A stretch of 42,876 bases of DNA from Thermoplasmata archaeon (lineage in GTDB: Archaea; Thermoplasmatota; Thermoplasmata; Lutacidiplasmatales; UBA184), in assembly GCA_021809545.1 (NCBI GenBank), contig JAKAYL010000012.1, positions 1 to 42,876 on the forward strand, in the 5' to 3' direction. This document shows, one piece after another, positions 10,105 to 38,477 of the stretch. Each line of letters opens with the position of its first letter. Positions within the stretch are counted from its first letter, which is position 1. The notes beneath the pieces are model-generated. The model made no database searches. It worked only from the letters and a program-made list of their open reading frames with translations, and was not told the DNA's origin. The translations under genes were made by a program, and so were the position numbers.

Positions 10105-10114
10105 CTGTCGACCC

Positions 10115-10138
10115 GAAGACGCGATGCCTGAAGACGCG
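10115..10138. repeat. Short direct repeat upstream of pntAA
   Basis: GAAGACGCG occurs at 10115-10123 and 10130-10138, 15 bp apart, directly before the preferred pntAA start. It could be a tandem regulator site or simply a local duplication. Confidence 0.35.
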
Positions 10139-10260
10139 AGGAATATCATACTTGCGCCAACTCCGGTCCCCCGCGGACGGAACGGAACTCCTCGGGCCGG
10201 GCGACCCCCTTCCTCCCGGGGACGATGCCCACGCCATCCGTGGGTGGAGATCGCAGCCGC

Positions 10261-10560
10261 TTACCCGTAGGCGTACCGTACGCCGAAGGGACCCCGGGGG
10301 AGGTTCCAGGTGACGGAGCCCTGGTCGCAGGCGATGTCGCACGTGCCGCATTCGACGCAGTCCTCGTACTTGAACACGAGCTTGCCGTCGATCCGCTGAT
10401 AGCACTGTGCGGGGCAGGCGATGGTACAGAACGAATGCGGGCACTTCGCGCAGATCGCGGGCTTGACGGTGATATGGGCGTGTTCGGCCGAGTCGGTGTT
10501 GTACCGAAGGGTCCCGAGACGCCGCTTGACATCGACGGCTTCGACCGCCCCTTCTGTCAT
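10261..10560 (-). CDS. fixX: FixX-type ferredoxin-like protein
   Basis: 99-residue ferredoxin-like protein that normally partners FixC/ETF-quinone oxidoreductase, passing electrons between electron-transfer flavoprotein and the quinone pool. Cysteines are arranged CAKCPHSFCTIACPAQCY and CVECGTCDIACDQG, and the C-terminus WNLPRGPFGVRYAYG is the usual FixX tail. Part of the first cluster pattern is degenerate, as in other FixX proteins. No fixA, fixB or fixC gene is in the window. It is 112 bp upstream of the transhydrogenase operon on the same strand. A TATA element is 30 bp before the start. Confidence 0.9.
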   Translation of the reverse strand: MTEGAVEAVDVKRRLGTLRYNTDSAEHAHITVKPAICAKCPHSFCTIACPAQCYQRIDGKLVFKYEDCVECGTCDIACDQGSVTWNLPRGPFGVRYAYG

Positions 10561-10586
10561 GGTGGAAGCAACAAAGCCTCCCCCCC

Positions 10587-10593
10587 ATAAAAG
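10587..10593 (-). promoter_or_regulatory. TATA-like element of fixX
   Basis: CTTTTAT on the minus strand, centred 30 bp before ATG 10560, consistent with a nearly leaderless transcript. Confidence 0.5.
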
Positions 10594-10643
10594 GATGGTG
10601 TTTCTCCCCCGGGAGCGGGCATAGGGTGGCCCGTGCCGAAAGC

Positions 10644-10661
10644 CTTTAGGGTCTGGGACCC
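10644..10661 (+). promoter_or_regulatory. TATA-like element and inverted repeat before ribK
   Basis: CTTTA (10644-10648) is centred 27 bp before GTG 10673. It is followed at once by GGGTCTGGGACCC (10649-10661), a perfect 5-bp inverted repeat around TGG, between TATA and start. RbkR-type proteins repress their own operons, so this is a candidate operator for the product of the gene itself (inference). Confidence 0.4.
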
Positions 10662-10672
10662 CTGGGGCCCCC

Positions 10673-11347
10673 GTGGCCGTCGCAGGACGATTGAACTATG
10701 GGGCCTGGGAGCTGCTGAAGCGTCTGGCCCTCCGGGGGGCCATCGCCGGCCCGGTGGTGCTCTCCTCCCGGGAGATCGGGGTCGAGCTGGGAGTGAGCCA
10801 GCAGACCGCGGACAACTACCTGCTCTCGCTCGAGAAGCACGGGCACCTCAAGCGAACCATTATATCCCGCAAGCAGCACCTCACCCTCACTTCCCAGGGG
10901 GTGGACGCGTTGCGCAAGGACTTTCTGGAACTCAAGGCGGTCTTCGAGGCGGCCAGCGAACTGGTCTTCTCGGGTACCGTCGTTTCGGGCGTGGGGGAGG
11001 GGCGCTACTATCTTTCCAAGAAGGGGTACAACGACCAGTTCGTTGCGAAGCTGGGCTACCTTCCCTTTCCCGGGACCCTGAACGTGCGCCTCGATCCGGC
11101 GCACGCCAACGCGCTCGAGGAGGTGCGGCGGATCCGGGGGATCCGCATCGAGGGCTTCGAGGCCGAGGGGCGGACCTTCGGAGGCGCCACCTGCTTCCAG
11201 GCGAAGCTTGCGGGAGGGGAGTGCCATCTCATTCTCCCGGACCGAACGCATTACCAGAACGTCTTCGAGTTCATCGCGGCCAAGAGCCTCCGGAGGACCC
11301 TGCGGCTCACGGACGGGGCGACGGTCCGCGTGGAGGTCCGGGCGTGA
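10673..11347 (+). CDS. ribK: CTP-dependent riboflavin kinase with N-terminal HTH (RbkR type)
   Basis: Makes FMN from riboflavin using CTP and probably also represses riboflavin genes. 224 residues. Residues 1-90 form a winged helix (SSREIGVELGVSQQTADNYL as recognition region, then a wing around RTIISRKQHLTLT). Residues ~95-224 are the archaeal riboflavin kinase domain: GTVVSGVGEGRYYLSKKGY, LGYLPFPGTLNVRL and ILPDRTHY are family signatures. GTG 10673 places the TATA element 27 bp upstream; upstream codons in the frame are not family-like. The stop overlaps the RaSEA start (GTGA), and RaSEA overlaps nadE (ATGA), giving a coupled three-gene operon. Confidence 0.95.
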   Translation: MAVAGRLNYGAWELLKRLALRGAIAGPVVLSSREIGVELGVSQQTADNYLLSLEKHGHLKRTIISRKQHLTLTSQGVDALRKDFLELKAVFEAASELVFSGTVVSGVGEGRYYLSKKGYNDQFVAKLGYLPFPGTLNVRLDPAHANALEEVRRIRGIRIEGFEAEGRTFGGATCFQAKLAGGECHLILPDRTHYQNVFEFIAAKSLRRTLRLTDGATVRVEVRA

Positions 11348-12366
11348 AGAGCCTCGTGCGCCCGGAGGCGCTCACGGTCGCGGCCGAGCGGAAACCCGAA
11401 CCCGCGGACGAGGGTGGGGAGTACCTCAAGGTCTGGCACGAGAAAGAGAGCCTGAACGGGACCCCCTGCGATGCCTTCGTGATCATCCTGCGCACCTCGG
11501 GCTGCTACTGGGCCCACACCCGGGGGTGCACGATGTGCGGGTACGCCCGGGAGACCCTGGGCCGGGAGGCGACCGAGGACGAGATCCTCAGTCAGGTCGC
11601 GAAGGCGATGACCCACTACCGGGACGAGCCGTACGTCAAGATCTACACCTCGGGGAGCTTCCTCGACCCGCACGAGGTCCCGCCGGCCGCCCGCCTCCGG
11701 GTCGCGAAGGCCTTCTCGGGCCGGGCCCGCCGGCTCCTCTTCGAGTCCCTCCCCGAGTTCGTGACCCCGGAGGCCATCGACGGGGTCCGGAAGGGGTTCG
11801 AAGGCGAGCTCGAGGTCGCCCTCGGCCTCGAGACGACCCAGGACGACGTGCTCCAGAAGGCCGTCACCAAGGTCTCGACCGTGGAGGAATACCTCGGGGC
11901 GGCCCGCCGCCTCCGCGACCTGCAGGTGCTCGGCAAGGCCTACCTGCTGCTCAAGCCCCCCTTCCTCACCGAGCGCCAGGCCATCGAGGATACCGTGCTC
12001 TCCATCGGAAAGGCGAAGGATCTCTTCCAGACCATCTCCGTCAACCCCGTGCACATCCAGGGAGGGACGCTCGTGGAGCGGCTCTGGCGCCGCGAGCTCT
12101 ACCGCCCCCCCTGGCTCTGGAGCCTCCGCGAGGTGCTCCTCCGGGGGAAGGAATCGGTGGGCGATGCGGTCCGCCTCGTGAGCTTCCCGACGTCCGGAGG
12201 GAATCCGCGGGGCGTCCACAACTGCCTCACCTGCGACGGAAGGGTGCTCCGGGCCATCGAGCGGGCGACGCTCTCCCAGGACTTCGAGCCCTTGCGGAAG
12301 GTCGCCGAATGCACGTGCATCGAGCGGTGGCGCTGGGAGAATTCGTTGGAGTATCTCGCGCCATGA
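11344..12366 (+). CDS. raSEA: Archaeosine biosynthesis radical SAM protein RaSEA
   Basis: Radical SAM enzyme that, with ArcS, converts the lysine adduct of preQ0 at tRNA position 15 into archaeosine. 340 residues. The cluster ligands are in SGCYWAHTRGCTMCGY, a CX7CX2C spacing instead of the common CX3CX2C, followed by YVKIYTSGSFLDP and ESLPEFVTPE; the C-terminus carries NCLTCDGRVLRA and a CTC pair. GTG 11344 overlaps the ribK stop by four bases; the longer open frame to the left only runs through ribK out of phase. ArcS and TGT are not in the window. Confidence 0.9.
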   Translation: MKSLVRPEALTVAAERKPEPADEGGEYLKVWHEKESLNGTPCDAFVIILRTSGCYWAHTRGCTMCGYARETLGREATEDEILSQVAKAMTHYRDEPYVKIYTSGSFLDPHEVPPAARLRVAKAFSGRARRLLFESLPEFVTPEAIDGVRKGFEGELEVALGLETTQDDVLQKAVTKVSTVEEYLGAARRLRDLQVLGKAYLLLKPPFLTERQAIEDTVLSIGKAKDLFQTISVNPVHIQGGTLVERLWRRELYRPPWLWSLREVLLRGKESVGDAVRLVSFPTSGGNPRGVHNCLTCDGRVLRAIERATLSQDFEPLRKVAECTCIERWRWENSLEYLAP

Positions 12367-13178
12367 CCGCGGTGCTCGAGCCCCGTCTCCCCCCCTATGC
12401 CCGGGAGGTCATCTCGGCCTTCCTCCAAGAGCACGTGACCGCGGCCCATGCCCAGGGCTGCGTGGTGGGCCTGAGCGGAGGGATCGACAGCGCCCTGGTC
12501 GCGCGGCTCGCGGCCGACGCGCTCGGACCTCAACGGGTCACGGGCCTCTCGCTTCCCGATGCCCGGGCTCCCGCCGCCCTCCGCAAGGAGATCGCGGAGT
12601 ACGCCACCTCGCTCGGGATCCGTTTCCGGGAACTCCCCATCACCCCCATAGAGGATGCGTTCGACCAGGCCCTCGGTTCTCCGGGGGACGACATGGTGGC
12701 CCGAGGGAACCGGAAGGCACGGATCCGGATGGCCCTCCTGTATGAGACCGCCCACAAGGAACGGCTTCTCGTAACGGGAACAGGGAACAAGTCCGAGCTC
12801 TTGTTGGGATACTTCACCAAGTACGGCGACGGAGGCGTGGACCTCCTTCCGTTGGGCGACCTCTACAAGACGAGCATCTTCGCCCTTGGCCGGGAACTCG
12901 GGCTGCCGAAGTCCATCCTGGATGCCCCTCCCACGGCGGGACTCTGGGAGGGACAGACCGACGAGCAGGAACTTGGCTTCACCTACGCCTTTGCCGACCG
13001 GGTGCTGCTCGGTCTGGAGCGGCTCCTCCACCCCGAGGAGATCGCCGAGAAGCTCGGGGTCCCGCTGCCCGAGGTGGAGGCGGTCTCGCGCCGGGTGGAG
13101 ACCTTCCGCCACAAGCGCCGGCCCCCTCCGATCCCCAAGCTCTCCCAGCGCACCATCGGAGTGGACTGGCGGGACTGA
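12363..13178 (+). CDS. nadE: Ammonia-dependent NAD+ synthetase
   Basis: Amidates nicotinate adenine dinucleotide (NaAD) to NAD+, the last step of NAD synthesis. 271 residues, the length of stand-alone (non-glutaminase) enzymes. The PP-loop VVGLSGGIDSALVARL is at about 37-52; GTGNKSELLLGYFTKYGDGG and PLGDLYKTSIFALGRELGLP are substrate-site signatures; the tail HKRRPPPIPKLSQRTIGVDWRD is standard. ATG 12363 overlaps the RaSEA stop (ATGA). It sits two genes after riboflavin kinase and close to the transhydrogenase, so redox-cofactor genes cluster here. Confidence 0.96.
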   Translation: MTAVLEPRLPPYAREVISAFLQEHVTAAHAQGCVVGLSGGIDSALVARLAADALGPQRVTGLSLPDARAPAALRKEIAEYATSLGIRFRELPITPIEDAFDQALGSPGDDMVARGNRKARIRMALLYETAHKERLLVTGTGNKSELLLGYFTKYGDGGVDLLPLGDLYKTSIFALGRELGLPKSILDAPPTAGLWEGQTDEQELGFTYAFADRVLLGLERLLHPEEIAEKLGVPLPEVEAVSRRVETFRHKRRPPPIPKLSQRTIGVDWRD

Positions 13179-13391: not shown

Positions 13392-16300
13392 ATGGGAACC
13401 GATGCGATGAGCGGCAATAACAGAACGGAAGAGCCCCTTTCTCGTAAGAACAACCAACCGGGCCGCGCGAGCACCGCCCGGAACCTCCAACTCGCCTACC
13501 TTCTCGCGTTGACCTTGGTCGCGGTGGCGGGCTTCACGATCCCGATGAACGCGGTGGTGAACGCTTCGATCCTCACCAGCGCCCATTCGACCCACTCTTC
13601 CCTGGCTGCTGCTCAATCGCTGGGGGGGTCTCCCCTCGCCGGCCTGAAAGTGACCTTTGACACCGAGCCCATCTCCTGCGGTTCGATCACCTTCAACGGG
13701 ATCAATTACACGACGGGGCAGAGCGTGGTGATTGCGGGAGGTACTTACCCGATCGTGGGCAACAGTTGCCTCAACTTCGAGTTCAAGACGTGGGGGAACG
13801 GAGGATCGACCGGCATAAGCCCCGCAACCCCCTCGCTTGCCTCCACCACGGTGACCGTCAGCTCGGCGGGCACCCTGTATGCCTGGTTCAGCTCCCCCCA
13901 GCAATTCACGGTGGGCCTCGACCTTGGCCCCATGAACTGCGGCGCCTCCGTCGTCTTGGGCGGAGCCGTTCAGGGAGATTCGACGAGCATCGGCTGGGTC
14001 TCTCCCGGAACGTACAACCTGTCTGCACTTCCCTGTTCGGGCGGTGGGTGGAACTTCGCAGGATGGGGTTCGGCCCCTGCTGGCGGGGCAACCTTCGGCT
14101 CTTCTTCCTCGATCACCACCACGGTCACGCTCAGCTACGGGACCACGCTCACGGCGAACTTCCTCGATGCGAAACCCTACACCCTCACCTTAGAGAACGG
14201 ACCGATCGGTTGCGGTTCGATCATCTTCAGTGGAACCAACTACACCTACGGGCAAACGGCCCCGGTCGCCTCCGGCGGTTCCTATCAGTACCACATCTCT
14301 GAGAATCCGTGTGCGCGCTTCAGCACCAGTAACTACTGGGGCGGCCCGGAGTGGGGAACGGGCAGCACCGGCTCGCTCTACGTCACCAGCACGACCCCCA
14401 CGATCCTCACCGAAACGGGGAATGGGACGCTCTCCGCGACCTACTACTCCCAATCCACGACCTCCCTGGGATTCGCCACGGGCCCCACCGCCTGCGGAAC
14501 CATCTACGTCGATGGTGCCCCGTTCACGAATGGCCAAAACTACCCCTCGGGTGGATCGGCGATCACCCCGGGCGTGTACAACCTCACGGCCGTGCCCTGC
14601 ACCGGTTTCTCCTTCTCCAGCTGGAACCTAGGGACGTCCCCCGGGCTTTCCGTGAAGAACAACCGCTCGGCGCAAACGCTCCTCACGGTCAGTTCGGGAG
14701 GAGGAACCCTGACGGCCAATTTCACGGCTACGGCGAAATACCTTGTCAACTTCGTCGCGAGCCCCCAGGGGTGCGGCCAGATCGAGTTCAACGGGAAGCT
14801 CTACTCCACCGGACAGAGCACCCCGGTATCGGCCGGAACCTACGACATCCTGGCGGTGCCTTGCGCCAATTTCCAGGCCCGTAACAACTGGGGGGGAAAT
14901 GTCTGGGGCACCGGCCCCGGCAGCGGACTCTCGGTGGCCGGCCCCACGAGCGCAGGAACCACCATCACCGTGAGCGGCAGCGGCACCCTCCAGACCACGT
15001 TCATCTCGGACTGGACGTACTCCCTCTCGACCTTCACGGGTCCCACGACCTGCGGAACCATCTACGTGGACGGGAATTCTTTCGGCAACGGCGGGAGCTA
15101 CCCCGGCGGGATCTCCGAGGGGGTCTACAACATCACGGCCGTCCCCTGCAGCGGGTACACTTTCTCCCAGTGGAGCTACAGCGGCGGACTCGTAGTGGCC
15201 GCGGCCGGCAAAGCCACCACGACCATGAATCTCACCGGATCCGGGAACCTGGGGGCGATGTTCATCGCCGGTTCCCCGGTCACCGTGACCTTCTATACCA
15301 TTCCCATGGCCTGCGGGGGGATCCAATTCGACGGAGGGAGCTATACGACCGGTCAGACGGTCAGTGTCGCCGCCGGATTGAGCTATCCCATCTCGGCGGA
15401 GCCTTGTGGCAACTACACGCTCAGCGGGTGGAGCTCCACGTCCGGACTCACCGTCGCGAGCCCCACGGGCTCCCCAACGACGGTCATCGTGAACGCGGCC
15501 GGGGACCTCAATGTTAGCTACGCCTACGTTTCTCCGACGTACACGGTCACCTTCGACACCGGCCCGACCACGTGCGGATCGATCACGGTCAACGCCACCC
15601 TCCCCTCTGCGGTCACCTACACCAACGGTCAGAGTGCCACCTTCCGACCCGGGGTCGTCTACAACGCGACCCCCAACCCGTGCGGAAACACCTTCAGCTA
15701 CTGGACCCCGGGGGGAGGAGTGAAGCTGGGCGGTAGCCCTGGGATCGCAGCGAACAGCTTTACGGTGAGCGCCCCAGGCTATCTCGTGGCCACGTTCGTC
15801 TCCACTACGGTCTACACGGTGGATTTCCACCTGGCTCCCGTCGGGTGCGGAGCCATCAACTTCAACGGGGCCATCTACACGGACGGTCAATCGGTCCAGC
15901 TGTCCCCGGGGACCTACAATCTCGGGGCCACCAGCTGCCGGAACTACAACTTCCAGAGCTGGGAATCGATCGGAGCGATCGCCCTCGGATGCCCAACCTG
16001 CAGTACGACCACGGTCACGCTGAGTTCCTTCGCCAATCTGACGGCGCTCTTCTCCTCCTACACCAGCTATACCGTCCAGACGACCCTGGAACCGACGACC
16101 TGCGGCAGCATCTCGCTGGCCAACATATCGATGGGAGATGCCGCGAGCGTTGCGCTCTCCCCCGGGACCTACCACATCGACGACCTTCCCTGTGCCAACT
16201 TTGCCTTCCACGGATGGAACACGACCGGCGGTGTGGCCCTCCTCAGCGGGGTCACGAGCTTGTCGAACATCAGCGTCACGGGGTCGGGGAGCCTGTCCGT

Positions 16301-19289
16301 CACCAACGTGGGGCTCACCACCTATCCCATCACCTTCGCCACCGACCCCACCACGTGCGGGGGAGTCTACCTGGGTTCGATCCTGTACACGACCGGGCAG
16401 AGCTTCCGCCTCTCTCCCGGAGTCTATGACATCGGATCGAGCCCCTGCAACAACACCGGATTCGGCAGTTGGGGAACTCAAGGGAACATCTCGGTGACCA
16501 GCAATCAGTTGACCGTCAGCGCCTCCGGGACCCTCACGGCGAAGTTCACCCACTACAATCTGCCCACCGTGAGCTTTTCGACCTCTCCGACGAGTTGCGG
16601 TTCCATCACGCTGGGAGGCACCACCTTCACGAACGGCCAATCGAGCACCTTCGCCCTAGGAAACGCTCTCCTTGTGGCCTCCGCCTGTCCTAATTTCGCC
16701 TTCCGAGGATGGAGCACCGCGGGCGGTGTCAGCATCATCAACCCCTCCGCGGCCAGCACGTCCGTCAACGTGAGCGGGAGTGGGACGGTCTATGCGAACT
16801 TCGTCGGAACTACCACGTACGCCGTGACCCTGGACAGCTCTCCGACGGGCTGCGGTTCGATCCTCTTCAACGGCGTCGATTACGTTAGCGGGCAGAAAGT
16901 GACCGTCACCTCCGGTGGAAACTACAACATACTGGCGGTCCCCTGCAACAATACGAACTTCCATATCTGGTCCACCGGGAACTCCGGTAACCTGTCGGTC
17001 TCCAACATCTATCTCAGTTCCACCACCCTTTCCGTGACAGGGAATGGAACGCTGACGGTCGTCTTCAATTCGTACAGCACCTACACCGTCGATTTCTCCA
17101 CCGGCCCCTCGACGTGCGGCTCGATCACTTTCGGTGGCCAGGTCTACACCAGTGGCCAGAATTCGGGGTCGACCACCCCTCCCGGGAACTCCACCATCCA
17201 GGCGAGCCCCTGCCCCGGTTACGCGTTCGCGTTCTGGTCGGCTACGGGCGGCGTGACGGTCCCCACCCCCTTGGTGGATGCCACCAGCGCTGACGTGACC
17301 GGATCCGGGAGCCTGACCGCCAACTTCTCGGCGGTGGGCACCTATCCGGTGACCTTCACGGAGACCGGGCTTCCCGCATACTTCTCCTGGTGGCTCAACG
17401 TCGGTGGAAACAATGTCTCCACGACCTCCGCGTCCAACTATCTGAGCCTCCCCAATGGTACTTACACCTATACCGTGGGTTCCGTTGCCCAGGGCACGGG
17501 GTCCCGCTACGGGCCTTCCCCGGGGAGCGGTACCTTCACGATCGCCGGTATCGGGTTCTCCCAGGCGGTCACCTATACCTCCCAAGTCTACCTCGCCACA
17601 AGCGAGAGCCCGGCCGGGGCGGGCACGGTCGCGCCGGCCAGCGGATGGTATGCGTCCGGCACCCCCATCACCCTGGACGCCACGACGGCGGCCGGGTATG
17701 TCTTTGCGGGTTGGTACGGTTCCGGGGTGGGGAACTACTCCGGAAGCTCCCCGACGAACGCCATGAACCTCTACTACCCGGAGACCGAGGTCGCTCTCTT
17801 CTCTCCCCTGAGCGTGAGCGAGTACCCGGTCACCTTCTCGGAGAGCGGGCTGCCCGCGAACACCACCTGGTCGGCCACGCTCAACGGGGTCACGAGCGCC
17901 TCCAATACCTCGTCGATCACCTTCCTCGAGACGAACGGCACGGGACTCCCCTGGTCGGTGGCGAATCCCCTGCTCGTGTCCCAGGGAGTCCGGTACAACA
18001 CGACGACCCCGACCGGCACGATCTCGGTCTACGGTGGTCCGACCTCCCAGTCGGTCTTCTACTCTCCGGCCTACTACCTCTCCGTCCTCGCCGCCCCGTC
18101 CGCCGACGGGACCGTCAGCCCCGGGAGCGGTTGGTACGCGAGCGCCGCCTCGGTCACCCTGACGGCCACCCCGGCCGCAGGCTACTTCTTCCAGAGCTGG
18201 ACGGGACAGGGAACCGGGAGCGGGTCGGGGACCGCCAACCCCCTGACCCTCACGATGAACGGTCCGATCAACGAGACCGCGGTCTTCTCTTCCCAGTCGG
18301 GCGGGGCCGCCCACTACACGCTCGGCTTCGTCACCGCCCCCGCCTCCTGCGGGAGCGTGAAGTTCGCGGGAACGAGCTACGTCTCGGGCAGTTCGAACAC
18401 CTCGGTGGTCGCGAGCGTCTACACGATCGACGGCGTCCCCTGCTCGGGATATTCCTTCGCCTCGTGGAGCACCACGGGATCCCTCACCATAGGAACGGCC
18501 ACCAGTGCCTCGACCACCCTCACCGTCTCGGGCAACGGGACGCTGACGGCGACCTTCACGGCCACCGGATCGAAGACCGGTTTCGTGGTGAGCTTCTCGA
18601 CGACCCCGGGAGGCTGCGGAACCATCTCGCTCGGAGCGAACACCTACGGTTCGGGGGGGAGCAACAGTTCCGTCCCCAGCGGGACCTACACTTTGTCGGC
18701 GACCCCCTGCCCCGGCTACACCTTCACTTCCTGGTCGGTCGCCGGGGGCCTGAGCGTCGCCTCCACGACGGGCCAGCACACCACGCTCACCGTGACGGGG
18801 GCCGGGACGCTCTCGGCCACCTTCACGGCCCAGCCGGGGTCCGGGACGAAGAACACCTCGACTTCGGGCGGCCCACTGGCCAACGAGTGGCTCACGATCG
18901 GGCTCCTCGTGGTCGTCTTGGTGCTGATCGCGGTGGTCGCCCTCCTCCTCCTGCGGGGCAAGAAGGGCGGGAGCGCGGGAACCCCGGCCCGGGGCGCCCC
19001 CGCACCCGTAGCTCCCCCTCCGCAGAGCCCGGCGGCGGCGCCGCCACCCCCACCGGCCTATCAACCGGCGCCCGCCGCCGTGCCTCCACCTCCGGCGGTC
19101 TCAGCCCCAATGCCCCCACCTCCCGCACCCTCCCCGGTCACGGCTCCGCCCGCTCCTCCGCCAGTGGCGGAAACCCACCAGGTCCCGAAAAGCACGGACG
19201 CACCCCCGCCCGCCTTCTGCCCCTACTGCGGGACGAGGCTGGTCGCCCACATTCCCACATGCCCCACCTGCGGGCGGGCGCCCAAGTAG
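13392..19289 (+). CDS. Giant cell-surface protein with 16 cysteine-paired repeats and cytoplasmic zinc ribbon
   Basis: 1965 residues, predicted outside-facing and anchored by one C-terminal helix. An N-terminal hydrophobic segment (~36-60) acts as signal peptide or anchor. Fourteen repeats of ~80-90 residues follow (about 80-1315) with the pattern V-x-F-x-T-x-P-x-x-CG-x-I-x-[FV]-[ND]-G ... Y-T-x-GQ ... Y-x-I-x-x-x-PC-x-x-[FY]-x-F-x-x-W ... SGTLxAxF, then two GLP repeats (YPVTFTETGLPA, YPVTFSESGLPA) alternating with two InlB-B-like repeats (~1317-1638), then two more cysteine repeats. Each of the 16 cysteine repeats keeps one Cys before Gly and one after Pro/Ser, suggesting one disulfide per repeat. 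A helix (~1831-1856) is followed by a Pro/Ala-rich linker and CPYCG/CPTCG, a cytoplasmic zinc ribbon. Adhesin or S-layer-like role likely; no enzyme domain seen. Confidence 0.88.
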   Translation: MGTDAMSGNNRTEEPLSRKNNQPGRASTARNLQLAYLLALTLVAVAGFTIPMNAVVNASILTSAHSTHSSLAAAQSLGGSPLAGLKVTFDTEPISCGSITFNGINYTTGQSVVIAGGTYPIVGNSCLNFEFKTWGNGGSTGISPATPSLASTTVTVSSAGTLYAWFSSPQQFTVGLDLGPMNCGASVVLGGAVQGDSTSIGWVSPGTYNLSALPCSGGGWNFAGWGSAPAGGATFGSSSSITTTVTLSYGTTLTANFLDAKPYTLTLENGPIGCGSIIFSGTNYTYGQTAPVASGGSYQYHISENPCARFSTSNYWGGPEWGTGSTGSLYVTSTTPTILTETGNGTLSATYYSQSTTSLGFATGPTACGTIYVDGAPFTNGQNYPSGGSAITPGVYNLTAVPCTGFSFSSWNLGTSPGLSVKNNRSAQTLLTVSSGGGTLTANFTATAKYLVNFVASPQGCGQIEFNGKLYSTGQSTPVSAGTYDILAVPCANFQARNNWGGNVWGTGPGSGLSVAGPTSAGTTITVSGSGTLQTTFISDWTYSLSTFTGPTTCGTIYVDGNSFGNGGSYPGGISEGVYNITAVPCSGYTFSQWSYSGGLVVAAAGKATTTMNLTGSGNLGAMFIAGSPVTVTFYTIPMACGGIQFDGGSYTTGQTVSVAAGLSYPISAEPCGNYTLSGWSSTSGLTVASPTGSPTTVIVNAAGDLNVSYAYVSPTYTVTFDTGPTTCGSITVNATLPSAVTYTNGQSATFRPGVVYNATPNPCGNTFSYWTPGGGVKLGGSPGIAANSFTVSAPGYLVATFVSTTVYTVDFHLAPVGCGAINFNGAIYTDGQSVQLSPGTYNLGATSCRNYNFQSWESIGAIALGCPTCSTTTVTLSSFANLTALFSSYTSYTVQTTLEPTTCGSISLANISMGDAASVALSPGTYHIDDLPCANFAFHGWNTTGGVALLSGVTSLSNISVTGSGSLSVTNVGLTTYPITFATDPTTCGGVYLGSILYTTGQSFRLSPGVYDIGSSPCNNTGFGSWGTQGNISVTSNQLTVSASGTLTAKFTHYNLPTVSFSTSPTSCGSITLGGTTFTNGQSSTFALGNALLVASACPNFAFRGWSTAGGVSIINPSAASTSVNVSGSGTVYANFVGTTTYAVTLDSSPTGCGSILFNGVDYVSGQKVTVTSGGNYNILAVPCNNTNFHIWSTGNSGNLSVSNIYLSSTTLSVTGNGTLTVVFNSYSTYTVDFSTGPSTCGSITFGGQVYTSGQNSGSTTPPGNSTIQASPCPGYAFAFWSATGGVTVPTPLVDATSADVTGSGSLTANFSAVGTYPVTFTETGLPAYFSWWLNVGGNNVSTTSASNYLSLPNGTYTYTVGSVAQGTGSRYGPSPGSGTFTIAGIGFSQAVTYTSQVYLATSESPAGAGTVAPASGWYASGTPITLDATTAAGYVFAGWYGSGVGNYSGSSPTNAMNLYYPETEVALFSPLSVSEYPVTFSESGLPANTTWSATLNGVTSASNTSSITFLETNGTGLPWSVANPLLVSQGVRYNTTTPTGTISVYGGPTSQSVFYSPAYYLSVLAAPSADGTVSPGSGWYASAASVTLTATPAAGYFFQSWTGQGTGSGSGTANPLTLTMNGPINETAVFSSQSGGAAHYTLGFVTAPASCGSVKFAGTSYVSGSSNTSVVASVYTIDGVPCSGYSFASWSTTGSLTIGTATSASTTLTVSGNGTLTATFTATGSKTGFVVSFSTTPGGCGTISLGANTYGSGGSNSSVPSGTYTLSATPCPGYTFTSWSVAGGLSVASTTGQHTTLTVTGAGTLSATFTAQPGSGTKNTSTSGGPLANEWLTIGLLVVVLVLIAVVALLLLRGKKGGSAGTPARGAPAPVAPPPQSPAAAPPPPPAYQPAPAAVPPPPAVSAPMPPPPAPSPVTAPPAPPPVAETHQVPKSTDAPPPAFCPYCGTRLVAHIPTCPTCGRAPK

Positions 19290-19383: not shown

Positions 19384-20460
19384 ATGAGCAGCCGGGTCCT
19401 CACCCTTTCAACGAACGCCGTCCGGGTGGGTAGCAGCCTTCTTTCAGCCGGGCTCGTCCCGGGAGAGGAACGCATCCGTAGTTCGGGCCTTCCCCGGTCC
19501 TCCTACCGCTTTGCCCGGCGGCGGCTCTACGAATCGGGACTCTTCCAAGACCACTACATCCCCAGTCCAAGAGCGATGCACACGCCTCGGATTTTTGCGC
19601 TTCTCCTGCACCCCTTTACGGATTCGATGGTGCGTGTCTGCCGTGAGTTGCGACAGTGTCCCGGAGCGACTACCGTCGTGTCGGGAGGACAGTCCATTTT
19701 TGCGTTGATCTGGCCCTCCTCGACTTCCGAGGCAGAGAAGATCGTGAAGAAAGTCTCTGATGGGGACTGGGGGACCCCGCTCTCCAACCTCTCCATCGAC
19801 CCGCATCACCCGCAAGTACCCGTGTACTTCGATTTTGAGGGAGCATGGTCCCGATTCGCAGGTACCGGAGGAACCGTCCGCTATCCCCGGAAGTTCCCCG
19901 AAGGCGAATCCCTAGGAACCTGGGGGCGCTTGGCGGGGAACGGGGTTCGAGCCTTCCAACAACTCTTGGGACGCCCCTATGAGTCCTCCGACGCTTCGGT
20001 CCCGAAGCATCTGTCCGGACCCGACAGTCTGCCGCGCTCTCAGCGTCGGTTGCTCGAGCAGGGACTTGTCGACTGGAGAGTTCTCCTGAATCCCGAGGTC
20101 ATGCCCGAGTTTGAAGGTGTCAGCATCTCCCAGCTCATCTGGACCCGAGGCTCGCTGAAGCTCCCGGGAGATCTCGGCCCTCTTTTCCGTTCACTTACCT
20201 CCGAATGCGGGGTCTACCCCTTCCTTCTTGCGAGCGATGGGGACCAGGTTCTCATGGGGAACATGGGAATCGGGAGGGATCGCCTTGGGGGAGCACCTCC
20301 ACGCATACGCCCAAAAACCCCCGTGCTTCCAGTGGTGGCCCGCTACCTGCACGGCCTCGAGGTCATTCGCGAGCCCCTGGCCTCAGTGACCGCCCACCTA
20401 TGGCAACGATATGACCGGCTCACCGGTCTGGGCTCTCCGGACACAGCTGGGACACCCTAA
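19384..20460 (+). CDS. Unrecognised HTH-containing protein, paralogue of 35902-36918 (copy A)
   Basis: 358 residues, no family recognised. The N-terminus resembles an Lrp/AsnC-like HTH (about 13-55; helix SGLPRSSYRFARRRLYESG), followed by a ~70-residue region with the look of a RAM/ACT ligand domain (IFALLLHPFTDSM ... GATTVVSGGQSIFALIW). The centre carries VPVYFDFEGAWSRF (~145) and RYPRKFP. From ~216 the same HTH-start plus RAM-like order seems to recur (LPRSQRRLLEQGLVDWRV ... VYPFLLASDGDQVLMGNMG). Copy B at 35902 shares all these landmarks. No signal peptide or membrane helix. Both copies abut surface-protein genes, so a role in regulating them is plausible. ATG 19384; TTAAC lies about 41 bp upstream. 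Confidence 0.7.
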   Translation: MSSRVLTLSTNAVRVGSSLLSAGLVPGEERIRSSGLPRSSYRFARRRLYESGLFQDHYIPSPRAMHTPRIFALLLHPFTDSMVRVCRELRQCPGATTVVSGGQSIFALIWPSSTSEAEKIVKKVSDGDWGTPLSNLSIDPHHPQVPVYFDFEGAWSRFAGTGGTVRYPRKFPEGESLGTWGRLAGNGVRAFQQLLGRPYESSDASVPKHLSGPDSLPRSQRRLLEQGLVDWRVLLNPEVMPEFEGVSISQLIWTRGSLKLPGDLGPLFRSLTSECGVYPFLLASDGDQVLMGNMGIGRDRLGGAPPRIRPKTPVLPVVARYLHGLEVIREPLASVTAHLWQRYDRLTGLGSPDTAGTP

Positions 20461-20501
20461 CACGGAGGGCAAGAATCTGATCTGAGCCTTGCCCAACGGC
20501 T

Positions 20502-20509
20502 CATATATC
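20502..20509 (+). promoter_or_regulatory. TATA-like element of the Kelch/PKD surface protein
   Basis: CATATATC, centred about 27 bp before ATG 20532, implying a leaderless transcript separate from the preceding gene. Confidence 0.6.
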
Positions 20510-20531: not shown

Positions 20532-23500
20532 ATGACAAGCTCCTCCGGGCGCTCGACACGAGCTTTCGGGCATCGAGTCCCACTTCGGGCAGGTGGCTCC
20601 CTAGCGCTCGTAGTGTTTGTGTCCGTCGTCCTCGCAATCCCCTCCATCCCCTTCGTGTCCGGTGCCCTGCCCGAGGAGGTCCGGACAGCAGTTCCGGTGG
20701 CCCACAACCTGTCCCTCCCCTCATCTTCCGAGGGCAGCGCAACGTGGTCCTGGGCCGATGCGTCACCCACGGAGTGTGCGGGCTACCACCCCTCGATGGT
20801 GTTCCCGGTGCGCAGCAGCGAGCTTGCCCGGAACCTGGCCTGCGCACACCAGAGTTTGATTGGCCCCACGATGCCGCCCAACCTTGCCGCAGGCGCAAAG
20901 ACGGTTTCCTCGACAGCTTCCGCTCCATCGTTTGGCCTCTATAACTCTCAGATGGTGTACGATGTCGCAGACCACGAGCTCCTGCTCTTCGGTGCGACCG
21001 GGTCGGGCACCCTGAATGGGACCCAGACCTGGGCGTTCTCCCATGGGAATTGGACCCGCCTGAACCCCCCCAGCACTCCCGAAAGCTGTTTCGGATCGGC
21101 CATGACCTATGACAATGTGGACAACTACGTCGTCTACCTGGCGGGAGGCAACTTCGGCTCGGGCTCATGTTCCTCTGCGGGTCAGACGTGGAAGTTCTCT
21201 GGAGGAACGTGGACCCAGCTCTTTCCGGCCACGTCTCCATCGCCACGGCTGGCGGCCTCCTTCACGAACGATTCTGCGGATGGATATGACGTCCTCTTCG
21301 GAGGTGCCTGCGTTCAGGGCGCCCACCTCGGTCTCTGTGGTGACACATGGAAATACGTGGGCGGAAGCTGGACCAATATCACGAGCTTGAGCACCGTGCA
21401 CCCCTCCCCTCGGGCGGGCGCGGGGATGACCTTCGATGTTTCGGACGGGTACGTGCTCCTCTTCGGAGGCACGGCGTGGCCCTTGAATATCGGCGAGCCT
21501 TTGACCATGACCGACACATGGGTCTTTTCGGCGGGCACTTGGGCGCAGGTACCGATCAACGGAACTCTCTGCGGTGGGCCCTCCCAACCGCTCTGCTATC
21601 CCAACGCCCCGCCCGGGATGTACAATGATGGGCTGACGTACGACGCCTCCGACGGCAGCGTGCTCTATACTTGTGCCCACGACAATGGCTCAGGAGGGTG
21701 GCCGGAGATCTACTGGAGCTACCACGGCGGAGTCTGGACGAACCTCAACGATTGGTCGCTCTACCAGGTGAATTGGCTCCCCTCGAACCGGGTCGCCGAG
21801 GGATTGGCATACGATTGGGGCGATCAGTATTCGGTCCTCTTTGGGGGCGTGAGAACGAACTGGGCACTCCTGAACGACACCTGGACCTACCATGCCGACG
21901 AATGGACCAACCGTACGAACAATCCTTCCGGGGCGGTCTTCGCTTCCGCCTCGGCGAATGTCACCTCCGGAGTAGCTCCTCTCACGGTTGGCTTCTCGGG
22001 AAGCGCGACCGGGGGGACGGGGCCGTACAACTACACCTGGAGCTTCGGGAATGGAACCTCGGACGTGTACTCGCAGTATGCCACGCGCACCTTCTCCGCG
22101 GCGGGAACATACGACGCCAATTTCACCGTCCAAGGGCCACTGGAAGCTCCGGCCCATGCGTTCGTTGTGATCACGGTCAAGAATTACTCCGGACCGTTGT
22201 CCGCGAACATCTCCGCAAGCCCTTCCGCGGGCCCGGCTCCCCTCACGGTGACCTTCACCTCCACGGTCTTTGGGGGAACCTCCCCTTACACCTATTCATG
22301 GAACTTCGGGGATGCCTCTCCCCTTTCGACCCTCCCTGATCCCACGCACACCTACGGAGGTCCTGGATCCTTCATCGCGATGCTCACCGTCACTGACAAG
22401 GCTGGTGCCTCCCTCAGCCCCCGGCTCCTGATCTCAGTGAACGGCTCCGCCTCCAACCTCTCCGCCAACATCTCCGCCAGCCCGTCTTCGGGCGCTGCCC
22501 CTCTCACGGTAGCCTTCTCATCCATTGTCTCGGGAGGAACGGCCCCATATTCCTACCGATGGAACTTTGGCGACGGTTCGGCTACGTCCAGTATCCCAGA
22601 CCCGAGCCACACCTTCAACGTCACAGGAAGCTACCTTGTCGTCCTCAATGTCACGGATTCCGCCGGACATTCGGCCTATCCCCGAGTGGCGATTACCGTG
22701 GGAGGATCTCTCCACGCCTCGATTCTGTTCGATTCCCCGAGCCAGGGCTCAGCGCCTCTCAGCGTGGGTCTGACGGGGAATGCGAGCGGGGGAACGGCTC
22801 CCTACAACTATTCCTGGAACTTTGGCGACGGTTCCCAAGGGTGGGGCTTGACGGTCCTCCACACGTACCTCGCTCCCGCGGGATGTGCAACCGGAGGGAA
22901 CTGCAGCTACGATGTGTCGCTCACGGTCCGGGACAGTCAGGGGGCGACGGCCGCCTCGGGAGGCGTGATCACTGTCAACCCGGGAAGCACGAGTCTCTTC
23001 CAGGCAGGAATCCTGTTCGACTCCCCCAACATCGGGCATGCCCCCCTTACCGTCACTGTGACAGGAAACGCCACGGGGGGAACCGGCCCGTACGCTTACC
23101 TCTGGGAATTCGGTGACGGGAGCTCGAACGTGAGCTCGTCCTCCACCGTTTCGCACACCTACTCTCTTCCCCCGGGATGCGGCACCAACGGGACCTGCTC
23201 CTACGTGCTCTCCCTGCAGGTCACGGACGCGGGGGGGCGTGTCGCCAACGCCTCTACGGTCATCTCCCTCTGGCCGAACGGAACCGGTACCTTCGCAGCC
23301 TCGATTGCGTTGACCCCATCCTCGGGCCCGGCACCACTCCCGGTCAACTTCACCGGGACCGCGTCTGGAGGAGTGCCACCGTACACGTTCGTGTGGTCCT
23401 TCGGTGACGGAGCCACCGCAACAGGTGCCTCGACCCGACACACCTACGTTCAGACGGGGACCTCCACGGTGATTCTGACGGTAGTGGACTCCCGGGGTAC

Positions 23501-24374
23501 GGTAGCTCAGATCTCCTCGACCGTGCAGGTCAATCCCCCGTCGGGAGGGACAGGGGGTATGCTCGAACTGTCGATTGGGGCCTCCCCGGCCACTGGGCCA
23601 GCTCCCCTCACTACAGTACTGACCGCCAGCGCCCAGGGAGGTTCGCCTCCGTACTCCTTTGAATGGAGTTTCGGTGACAATTCGTCCTCTGCGTCAGGTT
23701 CCTCTGTCACTCACACGTACACAGTTCCCGGGGTCTATGTGGCGACGCTGTACGCCTCGGACTCCGCGGGCAACGAAGCGAGCACCGGAGTCTTCATCAC
23801 TTCCAACGGGAACGGAACCCTTGTCGGCAATCCATTGGCCGCCTTCGTCGCCGTCGGGTCGCTTCGGGGGACAGTTCCCTTCGAGGTGACCTTCACCCCG
23901 GTGGTGAGAGGAGGTTCGGTACCTTACCTTCTGCAATGGAACTTCGGTGACGGATCGCAGGTTCTCTCCCAGTTCGGAACCTCGGTGATCTTGCACACGT
24001 ACAACCTCTCGGGAAACTTCTTCCCTTCGCTCCGGGTCGTGGATGGAAAGGGGGCGGTGGCCGAGTGGAGTAGCCGGGGGGCCGGACACCCGGTCACAAC
24101 CGTCGCAACGACACCCAACCACGCATTACCTAGCAACCGTTTCGGATGGGGAGCGCTATGGCCCGGGCTGGTGGTATTGGGAGCGCTGGTGGTCGTAGTT
24201 GCACTTCTCGTTATTCGCCGTTCTCGCGGGATTCCCAAGAACGCCTCGGGAGCGCCCGATGATGTCGTCGAACGTGGTACGGGCCCCACTCCCCTTCTTG
24301 CTTCGAAGGGAGAGACTCCGGAGCCCATGCCTCCGGAACCCCCGGAAGACGACCCGCTCGAAGATGCCCTTTAG
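20532..24374 (+). CDS. Cell-surface Kelch/PKD multidomain protein
   Basis: 1280 residues, exported and membrane-anchored. Signal peptide at ~20-45 (SLALVVFVSVVLAIPSIPFVSG). Residues ~130-470 hold Kelch/galactose-oxidase-like blades (repeated YD...YVVYLAGG / DVLFGG plus TWKFSGGTWTQL, TWKYVGGSWTNI, TWTYHADEWTN), probably a beta-propeller. Eight PKD domains follow (~470-1190), each with APLTV..F....GG..PY.Y.W.FGDG and ending HTY......V.LTV.D; domains 4 and 5 carry an extra Cys-pair insert (CATGGNC, CGTNGTC). One helix (~1205-1231) and a Pro/Glu/Asp-rich cytoplasmic tail complete it. Carbohydrate or surface binding and adhesion are likely; no catalytic residues are claimed. It follows the HTH copy A gene. 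Confidence 0.88.
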   Translation: MTSSSGRSTRAFGHRVPLRAGGSLALVVFVSVVLAIPSIPFVSGALPEEVRTAVPVAHNLSLPSSSEGSATWSWADASPTECAGYHPSMVFPVRSSELARNLACAHQSLIGPTMPPNLAAGAKTVSSTASAPSFGLYNSQMVYDVADHELLLFGATGSGTLNGTQTWAFSHGNWTRLNPPSTPESCFGSAMTYDNVDNYVVYLAGGNFGSGSCSSAGQTWKFSGGTWTQLFPATSPSPRLAASFTNDSADGYDVLFGGACVQGAHLGLCGDTWKYVGGSWTNITSLSTVHPSPRAGAGMTFDVSDGYVLLFGGTAWPLNIGEPLTMTDTWVFSAGTWAQVPINGTLCGGPSQPLCYPNAPPGMYNDGLTYDASDGSVLYTCAHDNGSGGWPEIYWSYHGGVWTNLNDWSLYQVNWLPSNRVAEGLAYDWGDQYSVLFGGVRTNWALLNDTWTYHADEWTNRTNNPSGAVFASASANVTSGVAPLTVGFSGSATGGTGPYNYTWSFGNGTSDVYSQYATRTFSAAGTYDANFTVQGPLEAPAHAFVVITVKNYSGPLSANISASPSAGPAPLTVTFTSTVFGGTSPYTYSWNFGDASPLSTLPDPTHTYGGPGSFIAMLTVTDKAGASLSPRLLISVNGSASNLSANISASPSSGAAPLTVAFSSIVSGGTAPYSYRWNFGDGSATSSIPDPSHTFNVTGSYLVVLNVTDSAGHSAYPRVAITVGGSLHASILFDSPSQGSAPLSVGLTGNASGGTAPYNYSWNFGDGSQGWGLTVLHTYLAPAGCATGGNCSYDVSLTVRDSQGATAASGGVITVNPGSTSLFQAGILFDSPNIGHAPLTVTVTGNATGGTGPYAYLWEFGDGSSNVSSSSTVSHTYSLPPGCGTNGTCSYVLSLQVTDAGGRVANASTVISLWPNGTGTFAASIALTPSSGPAPLPVNFTGTASGGVPPYTFVWSFGDGATATGASTRHTYVQTGTSTVILTVVDSRGTVAQISSTVQVNPPSGGTGGMLELSIGASPATGPAPLTTVLTASAQGGSPPYSFEWSFGDNSSSASGSSVTHTYTVPGVYVATLYASDSAGNEASTGVFITSNGNGTLVGNPLAAFVAVGSLRGTVPFEVTFTPVVRGGSVPYLLQWNFGDGSQVLSQFGTSVILHTYNLSGNFFPSLRVVDGKGAVAEWSSRGAGHPVTTVATTPNHALPSNRFGWGALWPGLVVLGALVVVVALLVIRRSRGIPKNASGAPDDVVERGTGPTPLLASKGETPEPMPPEPPEDDPLEDAL

Positions 24375-35905: not shown

Positions 35906-36918
35906 GAGAGCTCTCGGAGGGGGAGGCCGCCGTGGTCTCAGCCCTCCTCGGCACGGGGCTCGAGCCCCAGGCCACCGCCCTTCGGCGGAGCGGGGTCCCC
36001 CGGTCGACCTTCACTGTCATCCGCCGGAAGGCGTTCCAGGAGGGGTGGCTCTACGAGCGGTACCTGCCCTCCGCGGCCCTGGGGGCGGAACATGCGCTCT
36101 TCGCGCTCGGGCGTCCCTTCGCCGAGTCGGCGCGGGCCGTCCTCCAGCGGTGGTCGGAGGAGCCCTCGGCGGTCTACCTCACCGGAGGGGTGGATCTCCT
36201 CTTCGGGGCCTTCCTCCTGAAGGAGGGCCGTTCTGCTGCCCTCGCCACCCGGCTGGAGGCCGACCCCGGACTCGAGCAACTGAAGCTCTGGAAGGTCGAG
36301 GCGGCGCCTTCCTCGATCCCCGTCTACTTCGACTACGAGGGTGTCTGGTCCCACTGGACCGGGCAACGCTCCCTGCGCTATCCCCGTCCCTTCCCCCCGG
36401 GTCCCAGGAAGCCCTCCGGGGAGCCCCCTTCGCCGGGCCTCCGGGAGACGGCACGAGAGATCGTGGAGCGCCCCTTCCGAGAAACACCCGGATCCGAGGA
36501 GCTCCATCGGTTCGGCCCGGCCGGATTCCCCCGCTCCTGGCGACGTCTCCTCGCCCGGGGATATCTCGAGTGGCGGGTGTTCCCGGACTTCTCCACCATC
36601 CCTCCCTTCCAGGGGGGGAGGCTGGACCGGGTGGCCCTGCTCCACGGGACGCTGCGGGACGACCACACGCCAGCGGACCTCTTCCGGGACCTGGTCGGCC
36701 TGAGCCGGGTCTTCCCCTTCCTCTATGTGATCGAGAACCACCGGGTGCTCCTCGGCGCCCTGGGCAGAATGGGTTCGGGAGGCGGCGGAGCCGGGGAGGA
36801 CCGGGCTCCGGTCCTGCCCACGCTCGAACGCCACCTCTCCGGGGTCGGAGTTGCGGCGGTGGGCCGGGAGGGGCTCGCGATCCCCCGGGACCACCGCTAC
36901 GAGACGCTCCTCACATGA
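35902..36918 (+). CDS. Unrecognised HTH-containing protein, paralogue of 19384-20460 (copy B)
   Basis: 338 residues. It matches copy A along its length: RRSGVPRSTFTVIRRKAFQ (HTH, to ~50), LYERYLPS, FALGRPFAESARAVL and VYLTGGVDLLFGAFL (RAM-like), IPVYFDYEGVWSHW (~140), RYPRPFP, FPRSWRRLLARGYLEWRVFP (~209), and RVFPFLYVIENHRVLLGALG. The parallel HTH-RAM order in both halves suggests an ancient internal duplication. GTG 35902 overlaps the aTrm56 stop. The 3' end overlaps by 8 bases the convergent gene for a surface protein (36911-38374). A DNA-binding regulator of surface proteins is inferred; no substrate or family name can be given. Confidence 0.7.
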   Translation: MRELSEGEAAVVSALLGTGLEPQATALRRSGVPRSTFTVIRRKAFQEGWLYERYLPSAALGAEHALFALGRPFAESARAVLQRWSEEPSAVYLTGGVDLLFGAFLLKEGRSAALATRLEADPGLEQLKLWKVEAAPSSIPVYFDYEGVWSHWTGQRSLRYPRPFPPGPRKPSGEPPSPGLRETAREIVERPFRETPGSEELHRFGPAGFPRSWRRLLARGYLEWRVFPDFSTIPPFQGGRLDRVALLHGTLRDDHTPADLFRDLVGLSRVFPFLYVIENHRVLLGALGRMGSGGGGAGEDRAPVLPTLERHLSGVGVAAVGREGLAIPRDHRYETLLT

Positions 36919-38374
36919 GGTACGAGAGCGGGTCCTTCTCGCCCTCCTTCGAGGGCCCGTTCGACTTGGGGCCCTTCGCCGGAGCTCGCTCCACGGCCTG
37001 CCGGTAGGGGACCTGCTCGGGAGGCTGGCGGCCGCCCCGGCGCTGCTCGACCACCACGTAGGTCACTGCCACGACCGCGGCCACTCCACCGATGCCCGCC
37101 AGGAGGAGCAGCAGGGGATGTCCCGCCGTCCCGGTCGGGCCGCTCGAGTAGGTGAGGAGAGAGGTCGCGAGGTTCCAGGCCGACGGCACGCTCATCGGAG
37201 CGGCCTGCACGTAGGAGGAGGGAAGGGTGCTGGAGGTGAGCTGGCCCATCGGGGAGGGGCCGGTGCCTCCCATGCCCCCCATCCCGCCGGTGCCGCCACC
37301 CATGCCGCCGCCCATTCCGCCTCCCATCATGGTGTTGTTCATCATGTTCGCCGTGGGGAGGTACCCGAGGCGGGCCGAGGCGAGGCCGAAGTGCCCCATC
37401 CCGTGGTCGTAGTCGACCGTGTCGGTCCCCAAGTTCATCCCGAGGGAGCCGATCATCGAGCCCCACGGCATCTGCATCATGCTCCCGAACAGGTCGCCGT
37501 CCAGCGGCATGAGGAAGATCCCGTCCGACAAGCGGAAGGGCGCCAGCAGGTGGAAGGCGATCTCATAGGCCCCCTGGCCGTTCGGGAGGGTCGCGTTCCC
37601 CGTGTCCACCCCCGAGAGGTAGGCCGTTCCGTTCCGCTGCAGCGTTCCGGTGTGCGTCCCGGAACTGGTGCCCCGCATCGAGGTGTCCATGTAGAACTGG
37701 ACGGTCCACTGCCCGTTCCCGGTGAAATTGGCCGCCGAGCTCCACTGGCTTCCCGGAGTGGGGTCGATCGGGAAGAGCCCCAGGGCGGTGGTGAAGGCGA
37801 CCGATGCCTGCGAGTGCGCGCTGGCGCTCGCATAGGCATGGCCCGTGTACGTTCCGCTCCAGCTCGCGACCACGGTGAGGTTCGATCTCTCGGAGTCGGA
37901 GACATTGCTCAGCGCGAACGCCGGGACCGGGAGCCCGTTCTCGTAGACGGTCCCGTTCCGCGTGAAGTTCGCATACGCCCACTCCTGGTCCCAGCCCGAG
38001 GCGTTGATCTTCATCGTCTCGGAGGGGGCGGAGCAGGAGGGCCGGCAGAACTGCACGCTGTAGGTGAATCCGACGGTGCGGAGCCCGATCACCTGGAAGG
38101 TGGTGCTCGAGGTGTTGGTCTGGTTGAAGAGCACGGACATGGCCACGTGCGATGTGATCGTGTATTCGGCCGACTGCCCGCTCATGGTGACGATCGTCCC
38201 GTTGCCGCTGACCGTGCGGGAGCCCCCGTACGCCCAGGTGTTGTTCCCGTTCCCGAACTGACCCGGTATCGTGGTGGCCGCCACGGAGGAGGTCAGCAGC
38301 CCTCCCATCAGCAAGATCACGATCGCTCCCAGCACCCATCCGCCCATTCGACGAAGTCGCCCCTTTCCGGACAT
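36911..38374 (-). CDS. Membrane-anchored surface protein with Met/Gly-rich stretch
   Basis: 487 residues. Signal peptide ~8-33 (RMGGWVLGAIVILLMGGLLTS), then a beta-rich, Asn/Ser/Thr-rich ectodomain with about a dozen N-glycosylation-type sequons (NQT, NTS, NFT, NGT, NVS) and one likely disulfide (FCRPSCS). Residues ~344-375 form an unusual low-complexity stretch, NMMNNTMMGGGMGGGMGGG and similar, that could bind soft metals such as copper or be a flexible spacer. One helix (~419-443) and a Lys/Arg/Pro-rich cytoplasmic tail follow. No known family. The 3' end overlaps the HTH copy B gene by 8 bases, tail-to-tail. Confidence 0.78.
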   Translation of the reverse strand: MSGKGRLRRMGGWVLGAIVILLMGGLLTSSVAATTIPGQFGNGNNTWAYGGSRTVSGNGTIVTMSGQSAEYTITSHVAMSVLFNQTNTSSTTFQVIGLRTVGFTYSVQFCRPSCSAPSETMKINASGWDQEWAYANFTRNGTVYENGLPVPAFALSNVSDSERSNLTVVASWSGTYTGHAYASASAHSQASVAFTTALGLFPIDPTPGSQWSSAANFTGNGQWTVQFYMDTSMRGTSSGTHTGTLQRNGTAYLSGVDTGNATLPNGQGAYEIAFHLLAPFRLSDGIFLMPLDGDLFGSMMQMPWGSMIGSLGMNLGTDTVDYDHGMGHFGLASARLGYLPTANMMNNTMMGGGMGGGMGGGTGGMGGMGGTGPSPMGQLTSSTLPSSYVQAAPMSVPSAWNLATSLLTYSSGPTGTAGHPLLLLLAGIGGVAAVVAVTYVVVEQRRGGRQPPEQVPYRQAVERAPAKGPKSNGPSKEGEKDPLSYLM

Positions 38375-38396: not shown

Positions 38397-38406
38397 GGCT
38401 TAAGCC
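38397..38406 (-). promoter_or_regulatory. TATA-like palindrome before the Met/Gly-rich protein
   Basis: GGCTTAAGCC, a 10-bp palindrome centred 27 bp before ATG 38374. Confidence 0.5.
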
Positions 38407-38477
38407 GTGGTACAGAGATCTCGCCGCGCGCTGTACATCGTGCCCTACCCTAGCATGCCGGGAACCTCGGGCGGGGT

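Follow-up and report, generated by a model that had tools for sequence, protein, structure and literature searches.

Tandem Lrp-like proteins of Thermoplasmata encoded beside surface-protein genes, with a candidate operator and a common cytosolic tail on their partners

The window analyzed here, a stretch of 42,876 nucleotides from a Thermoplasmata archaeon, carries two related genes on its forward strand, P0001 (19384..20460; supported by its ORF, by BLASTP, and by an AlphaFold2 [AF2] model) and P0002 (35902..36918; an ORF). Their products are paralogues, with 32% identity over 347 columns in BLASTP (132 bits, E = 3e-40), which is far beyond chance. A first-pass annotation made from the DNA letters had described both ORFs, with correct coordinates, as sharing an ordered set of landmarks, and every landmark that it named is present in both proteins: SGLPRS in P0001 corresponds to SGVPRS in P0002, VPVYFDFEGAWS to IPVYFDYEGVWS, RYPRKFP to RYPRPFP, PRSQRRLLEQGLVDWRV to PRSWRRLLARGYLEWRV, and VYPFL to VFPFL. 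In a family tree, the two copies fall into different well-supported groups, and old paralogous clades are seen in the two genera that have many copies.

Both copies adjoin genes for anchored surface proteins, as the same annotation had noted. P0001 lies on the same strand between two of them. Upstream is the gene for a giant InlB-type B-repeat surface protein (13392..19289, + strand) with a signal segment and a C-terminal transmembrane (TM) segment, and downstream is its cis partner, an exported Kelch and PKD-repeat protein (20532..24374, + strand) with a signal segment, a C-terminal TM segment, and a cytosolic tail that ends in the motif DPLEDAL (24351..24371, + strand). P0002 is convergent with its partner, an anchored surface protein of about 480 amino acids (36911..38374, − strand) whose C terminus bears the motif DPLSYLM (36914..36934, − strand). 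Its predicted ectodomain consists of very long antiparallel beta strands, for which a search of the PDB gave no convincing structural match. P0002 is also the last gene of an rpl44e-rps27e-aIF2alpha-nop10-ArsR-aTrm56-like run, overlapping aTrm56 by 4 bp (ArsR and aTrm56 were assigned by Pfam and the other names by eye); this order recurs at two other loci (L135 and L147) and, less tightly, at a third (L150). The 13392-19289 product has a zinc-ribbon C-tail and has neither the DPL tail nor the operator-like motif described below. This protein and the product of 29401-32103, both window surface proteins without the motif, carry paired zinc-ribbon CxxC tails behind the TM segment, which might represent another class of cytosolic tail and mark a further system.

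The AF2 model of P0001 (pLDDT 85, pTM 0.88) shows two successive units, each a winged helix-turn-helix (HTH) followed by a RAM-like domain. In the first unit, an Lrp/AsnC-like winged HTH (19411..19533, + strand; residues 10 to 50, wing 54 to 60), which has a profile match to PH1519, precedes a RAM-like domain with the order beta-alpha-beta-beta-alpha-beta (19591..19797, + strand; residues 70 to 138). The helix closing this repeat holds the signature YFDFEGAWS (19825..19851, + strand; residues 148 to 156), of which Y, F, D, and W are invariant in alignment A1. The second winged HTH (19939..20088, + strand; residues 186 to 235, modeled as 186 to 225 plus a wing at 229 to 235) has a profile match to double-HTH proteins, and after the second RAM-like domain (20119..20376, + strand; residues 246 to 331) the model places a closing helix with HxY. 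The recognition helix of the first HTH (PRSTYHAxRRRAY) is basic and strongly conserved; that of the second is shortened in the model, and this HTH may be degenerate and not bind DNA. Members of the family are about 330 to 400 amino acids long, with two HTH-RAM units per chain.

A profile of 19 members matched the Pyrococcus Lrp protein PH1519 (E = 6e-5, positions 11 to 98), and the best Foldseek matches in the PDB were the fused HTH-RAM pair NirDL and then single Lrp proteins, including ST1022 and PH1519. In addition, a wider set of Thermoplasmatota proteins (alignment A2) aligned end to end with the family over 322 columns in hhalign, and several of them have two clear Pfam HTH matches. Their two repeats are closed by FFDFAPLL and DHxY, from which we infer that YFDFEGAW and DHRYDRL are the paralogous repeat ends of the family. 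The AF2 model, the Foldseek matches, and the end-to-end alignment together support the tandem HTH-RAM layout that the first-pass annotation had suspected; it had named a structure prediction as the check, and HTH folds are predicted in both halves. Sequence and predicted fold thus point to Lrp/AsnC-type regulators in which two units are fused.

The window's own genome (1.96 Mb in 83 contigs) has eight places that match the family. Two of them (L005 and L008, which share an identical 42-amino-acid overlap) belong to a single gene that is split between the ends of two contigs, so the genome holds seven genes. A search for further copies, proposed at the outset, was also positive in relatives. 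With one genome per species scanned, relatives were found only in Thermoplasmata or similarly labeled metagenome-assembled genomes (one is labeled "bacterium" and one "Euryarchaeota"). The 60 relatives examined include 37 genomes of the window's GTDB family; 35 of these carry the regulator family, with at least eight matches in each genome of the window's own genus, four to seven per genome in a second genus, and mostly one or two elsewhere. In a phylum-wide sample of 243 genomes, full-length matches were confined to this one GTDB family. Pfam and NCBIfam scans gave no model matching the family, in keeping with the earlier remark that it has no name; in Pfam, none of the 19 members matched at E ≤ 0.1, models of the HTH_AsnC-type/AsnC_trans_reg, TrmB, and MarR groups included. 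A literature search over open-license papers found no description of such a regulator/surface-protein system. The best reading is that this is a new, previously unnamed family of Lrp-like regulators.

We examined gene neighborhoods by calling genes with a purpose-written small codon-model caller in stretches around about 80 copies and in control stretches; background rates derive from these fetched stretches. By a criterion devised here, a gene was counted as surface-like if its product had at least 150 residues, one to three TM segments, low charge, and many small or polar residues. Tabulated in this way, 67 of 80 copies adjoin a surface-like gene, compared with 6% of background genes, and they are thus enriched near such genes rather than scattered. 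A divergent surface-like gene lies directly upstream of 53 of 77 copies against 1.6% in the background (Fisher P = 7e-48, with counts inflated by relatedness). This divergent layout, to which P0001 and P0002 are exceptions, occurs in all seven genera, and adjacency is also seen where a genome has a single copy, in several genera. Three local features may be added. In four genomes (L126, L130, L133, and L154), the gene immediately downstream of regulators from one clade encodes a homologous secreted protein of 187 to 188 amino acids. At L112 (G000:C35:11200-30900), the regulator and its tailed partner at 9025-13121 have a GC3 of 0.46 to 0.52 against a genome median of 0.87, which suggests recent acquisition. 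P0001 and its partner have mildly low GC3 values (0.69 and 0.73).

At least seven classes of partner, without mutual BLASTP similarity at the cutoff used, can be distinguished, including the proteins of about 480 amino acids, Kelch/PKD giants, 4-TM proteins, and several small singletons. Most of them end in the same way, with a proline-rich cytosolic linker (a median of 43 residues after the TM segment) followed by [DE]xDPL[GSD][HND]L[WLM] at the extreme C terminus, a feature that the first-pass annotation did not mention. A neighbor with the tail (DPLxxL[WLM]) was found at 61 of 79 copies, and all 61 obey the positive-inside rule; at several of the other 18 copies, a contig end truncates the locus. 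The strict tail motif is present in 53 of 92 adjacent tailed membrane proteins but in only 3 of 237 nonadjacent ones, and two of these three actually adjoin a family gene that the caller had missed, which leaves about 1 in 235. The tail is thereby ruled out as a general feature of surface proteins. Paralogues of the 480-residue proteins that lie away from family copies are mostly tailless, and one protein of G016 and G021 (L164 and L243) has kept the tail without an adjacent regulator.

An expectation-maximization run on 66 divergent intergenic regions yielded a 24-bp motif, TGNGACGNTNTAGCAYGCNGTCCA when read toward the surface gene, with a log-likelihood of 398 compared with 83 in shuffled sequence. 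Neither window copy is divergent, so the window promoters were outside the training set. Even so, the best intergenic matches in the window are 38432..38455 (+ strand, score 15.6), upstream of 36911-38374, and 20448..20471 (− strand, score 14.2), which overlaps the P0001 stop codon and lies upstream of 20532-24374; these precede the two tailed surface genes, and the motif faces the surface gene in the orientation seen at the other loci. When the motif was trained without the two multicopy genera, scores above 10 were obtained for 16 of 35 tailed genes, 0 of 43 other surface genes, and 8 of 775 other genes; with this other-genera matrix, a weaker test that goes in the same direction, the two window sites score 11.6 and 7.7.

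The motif stands at a fixed distance from the TATA box. A TATA box appears at +30 from the motif in 38 of 45 sites, compared with a mean of 1.3 at other offsets, whereas the start codon ranges from +25 to +375. In the window, this conserved spacing marks the TATA boxes TCATATATC (20501..20509, + strand) and CTTAAG (38399..38404, − strand); the respective ATG codons (20532 and 38374) follow about 26 nt later, as for leaderless archaeal genes. GNAC is weakly conserved at +20 to +23 and might belong to the BRE or represent an additional half-site. In divergent pairs, the motif lies immediately next to the start of the regulator gene. Taken over all sites, the motif shows weak dyad symmetry (80 of 2,000 shuffles were as good), and a perfect palindrome, seen at a few sites only, was therefore dropped as a description of the motif. 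No good match was found upstream of 17 tailed partner genes, including those of the whole genus g6, and in some subclades of the regulator the intergenic region has another conserved element, or none that we recognized. Two sister regulators (L140 in G002, genus g1, and L090 in G023, genus g5) are transcribed divergently from genes for homologous 4-TM proteins whose tail reads DPLDHLV. Between the genes, both have a distinct conserved element, ACATGAAATCCGAAAAANCNTATAGTCG, which is possibly a second class of operator.

The motif is also found far from any regulator copy. In the single-copy genera g4 and g7, it lies upstream of a distant, tailless 480-residue paralogue with scores of 20 to 25 (L227 and L229 to L236), which indicates that two promoters, that of the partner and this one in trans, are probably under the regulator's control. 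In one genome (G031), the matches with 0 or 1 mismatch are exactly two, at the partner and distant paralogue promoters. With up to two mismatches, 20 motif matches against 1 control match were counted in 13 genomes containing the family, and 6 against 13 in 13 genomes of other families; two genomes of the same GTDB family in which no regulator copy was detected had no match at this threshold. Because surface genes without a nearby regulator have the motif upstream, it is not merely a 5' element of the regulator gene, and because the tailless paralogues carry it in trans, tail and operator are separable.

With an operator-like motif common to the promoters of these surface genes, control of surface-protein expression is the best explanation. 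We put the probability at roughly 70% that, as a whole, tandem Lrp-like regulators control neighboring surface genes through the 24-bp operator. Each copy would bind the operator, whose end lies some 30 bp before the TATA box, and would thereby control the adjacent surface gene; in some genera, it would also act in trans on a second, distant surface-protein paralogue. That the family itself reads the motif is what its distribution among genomes suggests. Activation is the mode of action that we slightly favor, since a motif that precedes the TATA box by a fixed distance suits an activator that aids TBP/TFB, as for archaeal Lrp activators such as Ptr2. Archaeal activators of the Lrp type bind just upstream of BRE/TATA at a constrained position and recruit TBP (PMC2995911); the geometry is similar here, but the candidate site is somewhat further upstream. 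An operator abutting the regulator start in divergent pairs makes autorepression likely. Cis partners carry the tail and most trans targets do not, which suggests a dedicated regulator-partner interaction, in which the cytosolic DPLxxL[WLM] peptide might be a ligand of the regulator that serves for feedback or sensing. That the regulator senses the tail of its partner is a tentative proposal. Equally tentative is a novel archaeal type of membrane-to-DNA signaling pair, in which an anchored protein with an exchangeable ectodomain would present its DPLxxLW tail to the linked regulator. Transcription of the gene for the surface protein, and of related ones, would in this way be coupled to the state of the surface or the amount of protein there.

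The same regulator and operator could instead work by repression, release by the tail or by a small ligand of the RAM domain turning the gene on. Many Lrp-type proteins do repress, and the abutment of the operator on the regulator's own start would fit; however, archaeal repressors usually act over the TATA box or start, and the motif lies upstream of the surface-gene TATA box at fixed spacing, so we consider a repressor unlikely. Still less probable is a role of the family in the cytosol as an adaptor or assembly factor for proteins with DPLxxLW tails, which it would bind, the motif being read by an unrelated transcription factor. The near exclusiveness of the tail to the family's neighbors would be as expected of such a protein, and HTH folds can be reused without DNA binding, but the motif also precedes tailless surface genes in family-containing genomes, and falls to control level where the family is absent; the recognition helix of the first HTH, moreover, is strongly conserved and basic.

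Two further readings appear very improbable. NirDL, the best fold match, is likewise a pair of HTH-RAM units. In siroheme decarboxylases, a conserved HXYXR points into the cavity of their beta-sheet domain. H-x-Y-x-R has been reported as a motif of AhbA/B, with His98 and Tyr100 the residues named in AhbB (PMC4145669), and such a string occurs near the C terminus of 52 of 77 members. Fold and string urge caution, but a siroheme-decarboxylase-like enzyme (AhbA/B, NirDL) was rejected: none of the 19 members scanned matches a Pfam model, and the window's own genome has no PF17805 match. Moreover, the string sits in the C-terminal helix after the second RAM-like domain, unlike His98/Tyr100 of AhbB, its Arg is not conserved among members, the corresponding position in the A2 proteins frequently reads H/F-x-Y/F, and seven copies beside surface genes would make no sense for a heme enzyme. 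As for phase-variation cassettes, in which paralogues in invertible or recombining loci swap the expressed surface protein, there are several copies per genome in two genera, ectodomains are varied, gene order differs, and codon composition is divergent at some loci. Yet only short, imperfect inverted repeats surround the two window loci, single-copy genomes retain one conserved regulator-partner pair, and no recombinase was seen beside the two window copies, neighbor functions being judged by eye. The early suggestion of "switches for surface-protein expression" is supported as far as control of expression goes; its reading as ON/OFF switching or phase variation gains no support, as the genes have no long near-perfect inverted repeats around them.

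Little is known of how archaea control their cell-surface proteins, or of how signals cross the membrane in those archaea that have no classical two-component systems. In the present case, sequence is enough to name a family of regulators, the likely operator, the putative targets, and a cytosolic peptide common to these targets. If the tail is indeed the ligand, RAM domains would gain a peptide-sensing role.

Among known systems, the family most resembles the archaeal Lrp/AsnC regulators (Ptr2, Ss-LrpB, LysM, and PH1519/FL11) in its unit of a winged HTH and a beta-alpha-beta-beta-alpha-beta RAM domain. Genes of Lrp/AsnC regulators often lie beside their target, with activator sites upstream of the promoter at a constrained position (PMC2995911), and the family appears to be alike in this. 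In contrast, those regulators have one HTH-RAM unit per chain (about 150 amino acids) and dimerize through RAM, whereas two units are fused here, no Pfam or NCBIfam model matches, the putative targets are surface proteins, and one peptide tail is common to them. Lrp/AsnC regulators also bind DNA sequence-specifically and take up effectors in RAM; the counterpart for the present family is the candidate operator. Fused or paired HTH-RAM units are shared with NirDL and AhbA-AhbB, but the family has no match to their models, has H-x-Y-x-R elsewhere in the chain, and has no heme context. The apparently unnamed double winged HTH-RAM proteins of alignment A2 (L062 to L072), which occur across Thermoplasmatota mostly beside metabolic genes, have the same layout and length, profile similarity from end to end, and similar closing signatures (FDF/DHxY). 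Unlike the family, most of them still match Pfam HTH models, with weak to moderate TrmB/MarR matches, and no partnership with surface genes was seen in the 11 loci inspected.
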